Positions 36,420 to 40,309 of a stretch of DNA of 64,000 nt are shown piece by piece. The translations under genes and the position numbers were made by a program. The DNA comes from Changchengzhania lutea (GTDB taxonomy: Bacteria > Bacteroidota > Bacteroidia > Flavobacteriales > Flavobacteriaceae), in the NCBI RefSeq assembly GCF_006974145.1, contig NZ_CP039456.1:558001-622000 (forward strand), read 5' to 3'. Within the stretch, counting starts at the first letter, position 1. Every line of letters begins with the position of its first letter. Under the pieces are notes generated by a model that was not told the origin of the DNA, searched no databases, and saw only the letters and a list, made by a program, of their open reading frames with translations.

Positions 36420-36541
36420 TAGTGTCATTGGTAGAATACAGGACGTGGCAATCCCTTTATTTAGAATAAGATTTGTTTTTTCAAAGAAACATAGCTTTAA
36501 CTCATAGTAAAGAGAGACGAGACCCTTTTAAATAATATTAA

Positions 36542-36572
36542 AACCACCTTGTAAAATCAAGGTGGTTTTTTT
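36542..36572 (+). terminator. Terminator of htpG
   Basis: AACCACCTTG pairs with CAAGGTGGTT (10 bp, 6-base loop), followed by a T run. It lies 122 bp beyond the htpG stop. Confidence 0.85.
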
Positions 36573-36610: not shown

Positions 36611-36632
36611 TTATGTAACATTTGTTACATAA
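36611..36632. promoter_or_regulatory. 22-bp palindromic operator upstream of the sulfur operon
   Basis: TTATGTAAC (36611-36619), four bases, GTTACATAA (36624-36632) is a perfect 9-bp inverted repeat. TGTAA-N6-TTACA matches the half-site spacing of Crp/Fnr-family sites. It is centred about 45 bp before the start predicted from the -7 box at 36654-36661, close to the usual activator position. Confidence 0.55.
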
Positions 36633-36635
36633 CCT

Positions 36636-36661
36636 CATGATAATTATCATGTTTATTTTTG
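36636..36661 (+). promoter_or_regulatory. Second palindrome plus -7 box of the sulfur operon
   Basis: CATGATAA/TTATCATG (36636-36651) is a perfect 16-bp palindrome of unknown regulator, partly Fur-box-like. TATTTTTG (36654-36661), a full TAnnTTTG, follows within 3 bp. There is no TTG at normal -33 spacing, which fits an activator-dependent promoter. Confidence 0.45.
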
Positions 36662-36754: not shown

Positions 36755-38119
36755 ATGAAATCAATTATTTCAAATGTATTCATTCTACTTTTTTCAACAG
36801 CAGCAATTGCACAATCTGGTCATATAATGCAAGGGGTTGGTGCTGTAAACATGTCAATGGGTAGTGCTGCGACGGCACAACCACTGGATATTTCAGGAGC
36901 ACTCCACTGGAATCCCGCAGCAATCTCAACCTTTGATGATAAAATTTTAAAACTTGATGTTGGATTATTCTTTTCTTCGCCAGAATTATCTTCTTCTTTA
37001 CCTGCTGGAATGTTAGGACCAGGAGCTCCTGGTGTAAGTGGTACTACTAAGGATGATAGAGGCACTTCTATCATGCCTAACTTAGGATACTTATGGGGCA
37101 AAGAAGGCAGCAAACACACGTTTGGTGCTTCCGCCTTTGGTATTAGTGGCTTTGGTGTTACGTTTCCAGAAGAAGACAACAATCCCTTGAATCCTAATTT
37201 TAATCCATTAGATAATTCAAATCCTCTTAATTATCCTCAAGCTGCAAATGGATTCGGACATATAGAATCTGACTATATGCTATTACAAGTAAGTTTATCC
37301 TATGCCTATGAAATAACCGATAAATTATCTGTTGGTGTACAACCAAATATTAATTACGCAGCGTTAGAGTTGATGCCCAATCCAACAGCTAACCCAACAA
37401 CGGCAGGATACCCATCGTCCGACAAAGCCTCTTCCATTGGTTTTGGTGCTCAGTTTGGATTATTCTTCGATTCAGGTTTTGGATTAAAACTTGGTGCATC
37501 ATATAAAACAACTCAAAAATTCAGTGAATTTGAATTTGATAACACCTATTTAGATGACACTAGTGCTACTAATAAATTCCAAATGGATTATCCAGCAATC
37601 TTTTCTCTTGGATTAGGATACTCAATAGGAAATATAGATTTAGCACTGGATTTTAGAAGAGTTGATTATGAAAACACCGACGGATTTTCTGAAACTGGTT
37701 GGACTCCAACCGCATCTGTTGCTGGTTTTGGTTGGAAAAATATTTCAATTCTGGCAGCAGGCCTACAATACAAAGGCATTAATAAATTACCATTACGTTT
37801 TGGATATACCTATAACTCTAATCCAATTCCAGAGGAAGTTACATTTTTTAATATCCCGGCAACTGCTATTATTAAGCATTCATATCAGTTCGGTTTAAGC
37901 TATCAAGTAAACGATGCTTGGAGTATTGACGGCGTTTACCATTATGCTGCTAGCGATGGGGCAACTTCGGGACAAATACTGAGCCCATTAGCAGCCTCAA
38001 CGTCAAATCCATTAGGAGCGATTCCTGGATCATCAGTTTCCTATGACATGACAACATCCATGGTAATGGTAGGCATTAGTTATAAATTTCAAAAAAAAGA
38101 TTCAGAGACTAACATCTAA
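36755..38119 (+). CDS. OmpP1/FadL-type outer-membrane transporter
   Basis: I place the start at 36755 (MKSIISNVFILLFSTAAIAQ, 454 aa), because it gives a clean signal peptide; the frame is open 16 codons further upstream. After the signal comes the FadL hatch-like segment (MGSAATAQPLDISGALHWNPAAIS, with the NPA motif) and a beta-barrel ending in MTTSMVMVGISYKFQKK. FadL porins pass hydrophobic compounds such as fatty acids through lateral openings. As first gene of an operon with sulfide oxidation and sulfur-relay genes (14 bp to the next gene), it may carry a hydrophobic sulfur species, but that is only inference. Confidence 0.88.
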   Translation: MKSIISNVFILLFSTAAIAQSGHIMQGVGAVNMSMGSAATAQPLDISGALHWNPAAISTFDDKILKLDVGLFFSSPELSSSLPAGMLGPGAPGVSGTTKDDRGTSIMPNLGYLWGKEGSKHTFGASAFGISGFGVTFPEEDNNPLNPNFNPLDNSNPLNYPQAANGFGHIESDYMLLQVSLSYAYEITDKLSVGVQPNINYAALELMPNPTANPTTAGYPSSDKASSIGFGAQFGLFFDSGFGLKLGASYKTTQKFSEFEFDNTYLDDTSATNKFQMDYPAIFSLGLGYSIGNIDLALDFRRVDYENTDGFSETGWTPTASVAGFGWKNISILAAGLQYKGINKLPLRFGYTYNSNPIPEEVTFFNIPATAIIKHSYQFGLSYQVNDAWSIDGVYHYAASDGATSGQILSPLAASTSNPLGAIPGSSVSYDMTTSMVMVGISYKFQKKDSETNI

Positions 38120-38133
38120 TTAAAAAAAATAAA

Positions 38134-39381
38134 ATGAAACAGTTACTCATACTTGGCGCAGGTACATCGGGAACCATGATGGCAAATCATTTAAATAAAG
38201 TCTTGCCTAAAGATTCTTGGAACATCTCAATAGTTGACCAAGAGGAAACACATTATTACCAACCTGGTTTTTTGTTTTTACCTTTTGATTTATATAAAAC
38301 CAAAGATGTAAAAAAGAAAATAGACAAGTTCATACCAAAACGGGTTAAACTAATAAATGAAAAGATAGAACGTATTGACAAGGACAAGAATGAAGTTGTT
38401 CTAAAAAACAATACCATTCTAAGTTATGATATTCTAATTGTTGCGACAGGAACCAACATTGCACCCCAAGAAATTGAAGGCATGCTTGGAGCGCATTGGC
38501 ATAAATCGGTTTTCGACTTTTATACTTATGAGGGTGCCAAAAATTTACGTGATAAACTAAGAACTTGGAAAGGGGGAAAACTCGTTGTCCATATCTCTGA
38601 AATGCCAATTAAATGTCCTGTAGCACCCTTGGAATTTGCATTTTTAGCCGATTCTTTTTTCACCAATAAAGGCATACGAGATCAAGTAGAAATTAGTTTT
38701 GTAACACCCATGTCTGGTGCTTTTACAAAACCGAAAGCTACAGAGGCACTTAACTACCTCTTGGAACAAAAGCATATAAAGGTTATTCCAGATTTTAATA
38801 TTGAATCTGTAGATGGCCCAAACCATAAAATCATGGATTATGCAGGTGAAGAAGTTGCCTATGATCTATTGGTAACCATACCCACAAATATGGGAGACCC
38901 TATGATTAAACGCTCTGGAATTGGTGACGAACTCAATTATATCCCTACAGATAAAGCCACCTTGCAAACCAAAATAAAAGATAATATATTTGCTATTGGT
39001 GATGCTACAAATTTACCAGCATCCAAGGCGGGTTCTGTGGCACATTTTGAGGCAGAAATTTTAACGGAGAACATACAACGTTATATCGCCGGAAAAGAAC
39101 TTAAAAAAGAATTCGACGGACATGCCAACTGTTTTATTGAAACTGGTCACGGCAAAGCATTGCTCATCGATTTTAATTATACACAAGAACCTGTTAAGGG
39201 AACATTTCCGTTTCCTGGAGTTGGTCCACTAAGCCTATTAAAGGAAACACATATGAATCATATGGGCAAATTAGCCTTTAAATGGATTTACTGGAATATG
39301 CTAATCAAAGGAAAACACATTCCCTTTGTATCGGCAACCATGCAGACATCAGGCAAACAAATAGAAGAAACAACACATTAA
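38134..39381 (+). CDS. Sulfide:quinone oxidoreductase-like flavoprotein
   Basis: A 415-residue FAD protein of the SQR type. The N-terminal dinucleotide site is LLILGAGTSGTMMANHL, a second ATGTNIAP motif follows, and the C-terminal FAD site is NIFAIGDATNLPASKAG. Two cysteines fit the redox pair of SQRs: Cys161 (KCPVAPLEF) and Cys333 (HANCFIE). The third cysteine of some SQRs, near residue 125, is absent. The enzyme would oxidise sulfide or persulfide at the membrane and reduce quinone. The C-terminal stretch (LLKETHMNHMGKLAFKWIYWNMLIKG) is amphipathic, matching monotopic attachment. A related quinone or flavocytochrome subunit is possible. Confidence 0.88.
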   Translation: MKQLLILGAGTSGTMMANHLNKVLPKDSWNISIVDQEETHYYQPGFLFLPFDLYKTKDVKKKIDKFIPKRVKLINEKIERIDKDKNEVVLKNNTILSYDILIVATGTNIAPQEIEGMLGAHWHKSVFDFYTYEGAKNLRDKLRTWKGGKLVVHISEMPIKCPVAPLEFAFLADSFFTNKGIRDQVEISFVTPMSGAFTKPKATEALNYLLEQKHIKVIPDFNIESVDGPNHKIMDYAGEEVAYDLLVTIPTNMGDPMIKRSGIGDELNYIPTDKATLQTKIKDNIFAIGDATNLPASKAGSVAHFEAEILTENIQRYIAGKELKKEFDGHANCFIETGHGKALLIDFNYTQEPVKGTFPFPGVGPLSLLKETHMNHMGKLAFKWIYWNMLIKGKHIPFVSATMQTSGKQIEETTH

Positions 39382-39392
39382 AATAATATAAA

Positions 39393-39710
39393 ATGAATAC
39401 CATGGAAAAAACATATGCAGGACAAGCAATCAGTACAAATGAACAAGGCTATTTAACCGATTTAAATCAATGGAATCGTGACATCGGGACCGAAATAGCA
39501 AAAGAGGAAGATATTGAAATGACCGACAGGCATTGGGAAGTGATTGAATACCTTCAAGACCAATACCGAAAAGAGGTACCACTAAGTGTCAGAAAGGTAG
39601 GCAAAAGTAATGTGGTAAGCATTAAGGAGTTCTATCAATTATTTCCTAAAGGACCTTTAAAAATTTCAAGCAGAATTGCAGGGATTCCAAAACCTGTAAG
39701 TTGTATTTAA
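39393..39710 (+). CDS. TusE/DsrC/DsvC family sulfur-relay protein
   Basis: A 105-residue protein ending GIPKPVSCI, the conserved flexible arm of the DsrC family with the penultimate Cys104. The second arm cysteine of true DsrC (11 residues earlier) is Ser93 here (KISSRIAG), so it is a single-cysteine TusE/RspA-like form that can carry a persulfide but cannot form the intramolecular trisulfide used by DsrAB. Helical features such as DRHWEVIEYLQDQYR match the family. It lies 11 bp after the SQR gene and before dsrE2, so it probably receives sulfur in the cytoplasm. Confidence 0.9.
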   Translation: MNTMEKTYAGQAISTNEQGYLTDLNQWNRDIGTEIAKEEDIEMTDRHWEVIEYLQDQYRKEVPLSVRKVGKSNVVSIKEFYQLFPKGPLKISSRIAGIPKPVSCI

Positions 39711-39737
39711 TAACATAATAACTATAAAAAAATTATA

Positions 39738-40256
39738 ATGGAAAATATAGTCGAAAGTCCCATAAAACAAAAAGAAGACACCTCTAAAAAGCCCATAAAA
39801 AAAATGATGCTTATTCTGTCTAAAGCTACCATAGACAATGTGTATGCATGTTTTATTTTAGCTAATGGTGCACGAATGGAAGGCATAGAATCAGAAATAT
39901 TCTTTACGTTTTTCGGTTTGGAAGCCATCACTAAAAAGAAACTAGAACATTTAAGAGTAGCAACCGTTGGCAACCCCGGCATGCACATTCCAACGATGGT
40001 TGGCGGATTACCAGGGATGGAAGCCTTTGCCACTAAAATGATGAAAAGCGAGATGGAAAAACTAGATATTCCGCCTGTAGGGGAATTTTTAGAAATCTTA
40101 GCAGCATCAGGAACAAAACTCTGGGCCTGCAAATTAGCTATGGACATGTTCCATTTAAATGAAGATAAATTAATAGATGATTTAGACGGCGTTTTAACGG
40201 TTGGCGATTTTTATAATCGCGCACAAGGTGACAATACACAACTTATGTTTATCTAA
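39738..40256 (+). CDS. DsrE/DsrF/DrsH-like (DsrE2-type) sulfurtransferase
   Basis: A 172-residue protein of the DsrE2 type: KMMLILSKATIDNVYACFILANGARMEG, then FFTFFGLEAITKK and KLWACKLAMDMF. Cys131 in WACKLAMD fits the sulfur-carrying cysteine of the family; Cys38 is a second candidate. DsrE2 proteins in sulfur oxidisers work with TusA and rhodanese; neither is in this window. It ends the FadL-SQR-TusE-DsrE2 operon, and a terminator follows. Start and length are normal; the N-terminal lysine-rich stretch is soluble. Confidence 0.9.
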   Translation: MENIVESPIKQKEDTSKKPIKKMMLILSKATIDNVYACFILANGARMEGIESEIFFTFFGLEAITKKKLEHLRVATVGNPGMHIPTMVGGLPGMEAFATKMMKSEMEKLDIPPVGEFLEILAASGTKLWACKLAMDMFHLNEDKLIDDLDGVLTVGDFYNRAQGDNTQLMFI

Positions 40257-40281: not shown

Positions 40282-40309
40282 CCATCTTGTACAACCAAGG
40301 TGGTTTTTT
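40282..40309 (+). terminator. Terminator of the FadL-SQR-TusE-DsrE2 operon
   Basis: CCATCTTG pairs with CAAGGTGG (8 bp, one wobble, 6-base loop), followed by six T, 25 bp after the dsrE2 stop. Confidence 0.8.

Follow-up and report, generated by a model that had tools for sequence, protein, structure and literature searches.

The fadL-sqr-dsrC-dsrE2 operon of Changchengzhania lutea: a putative co-regulated sulfide-oxidation module and its relatives

Closest described systems

Sulfide oxidation by sulfide:quinone oxidoreductase (SQR), persulfide dioxygenase (PDO) and rhodanese is found in mitochondria and in many bacteria. In a 64,000-nucleotide stretch of the Changchengzhania lutea genome (contig NZ_CP039456.1; the window below), four plus-strand genes encode a FadL-type outer-membrane channel, a type III SQR, a DsrC-family sulfur carrier and a DsrE2-like protein. 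The operon is read here as part of a co-regulated sulfide-oxidation module leading from sulfide through protein persulfide and sulfite to sulfate, in which FadL would move hydrophobic zero-valent sulfur; the probability of this reading is put at roughly two in three. The genome contains genes for all of SQR, PDO, rhodanese and sulfite dehydrogenase. Unlike the SQR-PDO-rhodanese pathway, the C. lutea system has DsrE2 and DsrC added as protein carriers, so that the sulfur need not be accepted by low-molecular thiols.

Among known systems the nearest is the Methylacidiphilum fumariolicum SolV operon MFUM_v2_0219-0221, which encodes an H2S-induced type III SQR, TusA and DsrE2; the SorAB genes of that organism are H2S-induced as well (PMC10205796). 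In both operons the type III SQR precedes a small sulfur carrier and DsrE2 comes last, and both genomes contain sulfur dioxygenase-type and SorAB genes. The C. lutea operon differs in that its middle carrier belongs to the DsrC family, TusA is absent from the genome and FadL leads the operon; a further difference is that most relatives outside the host's family carry DUF1641.

The DsrEFH-DsrC system of Allochromatium vinosum, in which sulfur is passed from DsrE to the penultimate cysteine of DsrC and not back (PMC3397948), likewise combines a DsrE-fold carrier with a DsrC acceptor bearing a penultimate cysteine. C. lutea, however, lacks DsrAB, its DsrC is without the second cysteine, one DsrE2-type protein stands in for DsrEFH and an SQR is co-encoded. 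A third likeness is with the formate dehydrogenase ForCE, whose DUF1641-type subunit ForE is needed for menaquinone coupling (PMC8808070). Relatives of the operon place DUF1641 directly after SQR, as forE accompanies forC, whereas the catalytic subunit here is a flavoprotein and the window operon is without DUF1641. By analogy with the menaquinone-coupling role of ForE, DUF1641 may be a quinone partner of the SQR.

Conservation of the module and identity of its proteins

The module was surveyed in 251 genomes of the host's own bacterial family, Flavobacteriaceae (the family below). SQR was found in 37/251 genomes and DsrE2 in 37/251, with both present in 36 of the 38 holders (Fisher p 3e-41); the two genomes with only one of them are incomplete assemblies (73 and 80% complete). 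The order SQR-DsrC-DsrE2 was kept in 30/30 of the family loci first examined and recurred among the Bacteroidota in loci of 16 other families. GTDB species were scanned as well, giving at least 572 relatives, of which 80 were kept for locus analysis. Adjoining the SQR in these loci were DsrC (74), DsrE2 (71) and DUF1641 (68), most of the others being contig ends, and the trio stood in order in about 70/80. The phyla represented include Calditrichota, Marinimicrobia, KSB1, Verrucomicrobiota, Chloroflexota, Gemmatimonadota, Acidobacteriota, Myxococcota, Latescibacterota, Actinomycetota and Planctomycetota. The DUF1641 gene (PF07849) lies between SQR and DsrC in most cross-phylum loci and is missing from that place in nearly all family loci, the window operon included. 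SQR-(DUF1641)-DsrC-DsrE2 is a conserved unit in about a dozen phyla, and FadL is its frequent, separable partner. No description of the order SQR-DUF1641-DsrC-DsrE2 was found in the literature searched, which covered few subscription papers.

In the distant families f18 and f21 (34-47% identity) SQR is present without the trio. Same-clade SQRs of f18, probably Chlorobiaceae, have no adjoining dsrC or dsrE2 (L087, L090, L091, L093), and in L090 and L091 the SQR stands after a soxB-like gene. MerR-family regulators are frequent upstream of the module in Calditrichota, Ignavibacteria and Marinimicrobia. Plasmid-borne copies were considered and rejected, the sole match being one distant halophile plasmid (33% identity).

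The SQR scored 648 bits against NF049943 (cut-off 525), a model that its deep homologues pass too. Among proteins of solved structure, human SQOR is its best match both in sequence (E 3e-47) and in fold (E 1.5e-32), ranking above other SQRs, flavocytochrome c and type II NADH dehydrogenases. The two redox cysteines align with the catalytic redox cysteines of human SQOR and are invariant in 80/80 homologues. In a tree built with types I, IV, V and VI left out, the protein falls in one clade with type III SQRs of many phyla, and a 100/100 split sets it apart from human SQOR and the same family's second SQR. The preliminary description had said that its pathway would fall if the flavoprotein grouped outside the SQRs or if the four genes were rarely adjacent in relatives. 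Given the identity of the SQR and the conservation of the module, the proposal holds on both counts for the second to fourth genes, which are widely kept in order; FadL is separable from them and in the family usually divergent.

Members of NF049943 may carry selenocysteine at an HxxU motif (PMC13188914), which corresponds to H330-A-N-C333 in this SQR. Selenocysteine was considered for an in-frame TGA in genome G209 and was rejected, the selenocysteine position of NF049943 (C333) being Cys in 80/80 rows. Since the open frame there and the protein are of about the same length, that TGA is taken as the stop at the protein's end. A second SQR type, which groups with human SQOR, adjoins sorA at L184:1874 and L045:4377, with the operator described below between the two genes.

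Assignment of the third protein to the DsrC family was borne out by PF04358/TIGR03342. The preliminary name TusE was not earned: the protein reached 70 bits against the TusE equivalog (cut-off 191) and the genome has no TusA. CysA (C104) was kept in every complete cross-phylum row and in all family rows, and CysB was replaced, by S93 here and by A, S or T elsewhere. Of the features of a dissimilatory DsrC, CysA is present and CysB and DsrAB are lacking; in organisms that have no DsrAB, DsrC/TusE proteins are reported to show the same pattern, CysA kept and CysB lost (PMC3397948). The fourth protein scored 113 bits against Pfam DrsE_2 (PF13686; cut-off 25), and Foldseek placed it in the DsrE fold (2qs7, E 9e-12; DsrEFH, E 1e-4). 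Its C131 is conserved in 66/66 rows, and a check for membrane-spanning segments gave a best 19-residue hydropathy of 1.48. Cys104 and Cys131, which had been proposed as sites of persulfidation, are both present.

The single cysteine of DsrC, as in TusE, would also suit a role of DsrC/TusE and DsrE2 in tRNA 2-thiouridine synthesis, like that of TusA-TusBCD-TusE in Escherichia coli, with the SQR as sulfur source. The module is too rare for a core tRNA function, being present in only 37 of the family genomes; besides the missing TusA and the unmet TusE cut-off, it has an operator in common with sulfite dehydrogenase genes. This role is so improbable on distribution and the absence of TusA that it was rejected.

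Overall the preliminary description is partly supported. Its observation of a four-gene operon was confirmed from the coordinates of the open reading frames (gaps of 14, 11 and 27 bp), and the one shared terminator that it gave was seen in the sequence as a hairpin with a T-run, which is absent from the list of an automatic terminator scan (Table 1). The operon is flanked upstream by htpG, which has its own terminator, and downstream by a gene for an FKBP-type isomerase. The arms of the two terminators, CCACCTTG and CAAGGTGG, are nearly identical, one lying on each side of the operon.

Table 1. Features of the operon and its borders (positions in the window)
Feature	Position	Strand	Description
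htpG terminator	36540..36569		arm CCACCTTG
palindromic operator	36611..36632		TTATGTAACATTTGTTACATAA; core GTAAC-N4-GTTAC at 36615-36628; upstream of fadL
second perfect palindrome	36636..36651		CATGATAATTATCATG; follows the operator without another feature between; a single exact copy within the window
fadL	36755..38119	+	454 aa from ATG; PF03349 FadL/TodX outer-membrane channel; signal-peptide-like N-terminus; no cysteine
sqr	38134..39381	+	type III SQR, NF049943; redox cysteines C161 and C333
dsrC-family gene	39393..39710	+	PF04358/TIGR03342; penultimate cysteine C104 only; S93 at CysB position
dsrE2-like gene	39738..40256	+	PF13686; DsrE fold with invariant C131 at the end of a strand
terminator-like hairpin	40282..40309	+	CCATCTTG-TACAAC-CAAGGTGG-T6; read directly from the sequence; closes the operon

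The FadL channel and the shared operator

The first protein was confirmed as FadL-type by PF03349 (76 bits, cut-off 30) and by similarity to solved TodX (E 9e-6). A close FadL was found in 28/37 SQR-positive and 19/214 SQR-negative family genomes (odds ratio 32, p 4e-17). As related genomes do not count as independent draws, the strength of the association is at most what this p-value indicates. FadL was nearby in 20/76 of the loci having both flanks. It is divergent from SQR in most family loci, directly upstream on the same strand (the order of the window) in Verrucomicrobiota and one Acidobacteriota locus, and downstream on the same strand in Ignavibacteria, Gemmatimonadota and Latescibacterota. 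FadL was absent from all Chloroflexota loci examined; members of this phylum are without a typical outer membrane. In locus L184, from an SQR-negative genome, FadL stands beside PDO and SorAB.

Loci L183 and L187 (genomes G062 and G134) have fadL after a gene for an ExtM-like multihaem cytochrome and facing a cluster that encodes a PhsA-like molybdoenzyme together with Fe-S and NrfD-type subunits; the operator lies between cluster and fadL. This is a possible system for the reduction of zero-valent sulfur or thiosulfate that uses the same channel. The order htpG-fadL-MOSC was seen in L194 (G220), in the same place as in the window and without sqr-dsrC-dsrE2, which suggests loss or insertion of the trio.

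The palindromic core GTAAC-N4-GTTAC occurs twice before sorA in this genome. It was found upstream of sqr in 14/20 family loci (at most one mismatch) against about 0.01 expected per locus. The 646 kb of loci contained 33 exact copies, whereas any other spacing occurred 0-2 times; the exact copies preceded 11/21 sqr, 16/31 fadL, 5/5 sorA and 2/2 phsA-like genes, compared with 7/382 other genes, some of which are divergent partners. The fadL genes with the operator include some of SQR-negative genomes, and the TauE-PDO operon of L043 carries it too. The 646 kb of loci had been chosen for sqr or fadL, and two further tests were therefore made. Other stretches of this genome, 300 kb in all, had no exact copy, and among held-out sorA genes, taken from genomes without this sqr and fadL, 6/20 were preceded by one at -62 to -139 (p 9e-6).

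Further copies were noted in passing. One, at L184:12212-12225, precedes a gene for a SulP-type anion transporter, which lies near PDO, fadL and sorAB and is a candidate transporter of sulfate or sulfite. Exact copies at L033:11715 and L042:466 and 489 precede genes with no obvious sulfur role, which encode a TolC-like efflux protein and a restriction-endonuclease-like protein.

FadL could instead be an ordinary fatty-acid or hydrocarbon channel that neighbours the operon by chance, the system being the three downstream genes. Nine of the 37 SQR-positive genomes have no close FadL and 19 SQR-negative genomes have one; the G220 arrangement, too, means that FadL may have held its place independently. 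This explanation is nevertheless doubtful in view of the strong co-occurrence, the varying positions in which FadL is a same-strand neighbour of the module in five other groups, and the exact operator before about half of the fadL genes; in SQR-negative genomes FadL can moreover adjoin a PhsA-like reductase cluster or PDO/SorAB. The idea of hydrophobic-sulfur uptake in the preliminary description thus gains indirect support from the phylogenetic profile, the operator and the other phyla, while the substrate is one that we infer. True transport proteins for S0 are reported to be experimentally unconfirmed (PMC10045233).

The pairing of FadL with a cluster of the sulfur-reducing, PhsA-like type means that zero-valent sulfur reduction may occur in the family, and would fit an SQR-like flavoprotein working in reverse as a quinol- or thiol-dependent polysulfide or persulfide reductase. 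Against this, type III SQRs are reported to couple sulfide oxidation with quinone reduction (PMC10205796), and the linkage with sulfite dehydrogenase is oxidative; such a reversal is very improbable.

The 5-N4-5 architecture of the operator is that of Crp/Fnr-type boxes. A Crp/Fnr-type gene is present in the PDO cluster of this genome (C1:376086-376721) and another beside fadL in G133, which makes such a protein a candidate regulator; a literature search on HcpR as regulator gave nothing usable. A wider proposal, offered tentatively and at less than even odds, is that FadL is a dedicated outer-membrane channel for zero-valent sulfur and a core member of a Crp/Fnr-type sulfur regulon of the family (fadL, sqr-dsrC-dsrE2, sorAB, phs-like) and that SQR-DUF1641-DsrC-DsrE2 is a pan-phylum, TusA-free protein-persulfide route.

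Candidate sulfur acceptors and the proposed route

As in the preliminary description, no DsrAB or sHdr system accompanies the operon. DsrA is absent from this genome and was above cut-off in 0/37 SQR-positive genomes; weak matches in 12 genomes, far below cut-off and in frames of about 700-870 aa, are probably assimilatory sulfite reductases. A shdr set with two HdrB-type CCG proteins was not found in this genome, whose sole CCG-domain protein (263 aa) adjoins a 320-aa Fe-S protein. TusA was not found in this genome and was above cut-off in only 2/37 SQR-positive genomes. Of the partners that were to be sought elsewhere in the genome, tusA is thus lacking, rhodanese is present as a fusion with PDO, and hdr is represented by the one CCG protein.

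Two clusters of the same genome are good acceptor candidates, and the earlier wording of an unknown acceptor was too pessimistic. The first, Crp-YeeE-YeeE-TauE-PDO/rhodanese (C1:376086-380113; PDO part C1:376850-380113), adjoins the trio in relatives L038, L043, L048 and L051. The second, SorA-SorB-sulfurtransferase-sterol desaturase-like (C1:923404-926922), adjoins it in L036, L043, L045 and L048. SorA is enriched with SQR (19/37 SQR-positive vs 51/214 SQR-negative genomes, p 0.001). Co-occurrence of PDO was rejected as evidence of a specific partnership: PDO is near-universal in the family, which makes its co-occurrence with SQR uninformative.

Several results weigh against the proposed module. 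PDO is found in 225/251 family genomes, with or without SQR, and is no dedicated partner; a close PDO match is missing in 4 SQR-positive genomes, where another acceptor may therefore exist; and a search for the operator ahead of this genome's PDO operon gave none. SorA is present in only about half of the SQR-positive genomes. Residues 331-415 of the SQR fold model, which hold C333, are of low confidence. The fourth protein reached 100 bits against the NCBIfam DsrE2 equivalog NF047629 (cut-off 210) and is hence called DsrE2-like, not DsrE2 in the strict curated sense; the earlier identification as DsrE2 stands for PF13686, the DsrE fold and C131, and not for the equivalog.

The near-universal PDO and patchy SorA would also suit a system for detoxification only, in which SQR makes zero-valent sulfur or polysulfide, DsrE2 and DsrC buffer persulfide, there is no dedicated hand-off to PDO, and sulfite oxidation serves other sulfite sources. 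The stoichiometry measured in M. fumariolicum points to an oxidation that for the most part ends at elemental sulfur (PMC10205796), which keeps this explanation alive. It is unlikely, however, given that sorA and sqr have the operator in common, that the TauE-PDO operon of L043 has it too and that the PDO and SorAB clusters adjoin the trio in some relatives.

In the sulfide-oxidation module that we favour, the type III SQR would oxidise sulfide at the cytoplasmic face of the inner membrane, pass electrons to the quinone pool and make persulfide. Sulfane sulfur is then likely, by analogy with A. vinosum, to be relayed from SQR to DsrE2 (C131) and on to the single-cysteine DsrC (C104) as acceptor, a cytosolic relay in the place of TusA; the transfer to DsrE2 and TusE given earlier is corrected to this direction. 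DsrC would hand the sulfur to the PDO-rhodanese fusion, yielding sulfite, which SorAB would oxidise to sulfate or TauE would export. FadL would provide outer-membrane passage for hydrophobic zero-valent sulfur (S8 or polysulfane), and transcription would be under the operator common to the operon and sorAB.

Its co-occurrence and co-regulation with enzymes of the sulfide, sulfite and polysulfide type make FadL a concrete candidate for outer-membrane transport of S0. For DsrC proteins found without DsrAB, the module order, which about a dozen phyla keep, provides a testable role, and it suggests that DUF1641 is a quinone-coupling partner of SQR. The module is also a genomic marker of sulfide oxidation in lineages without dsr or shdr genes.

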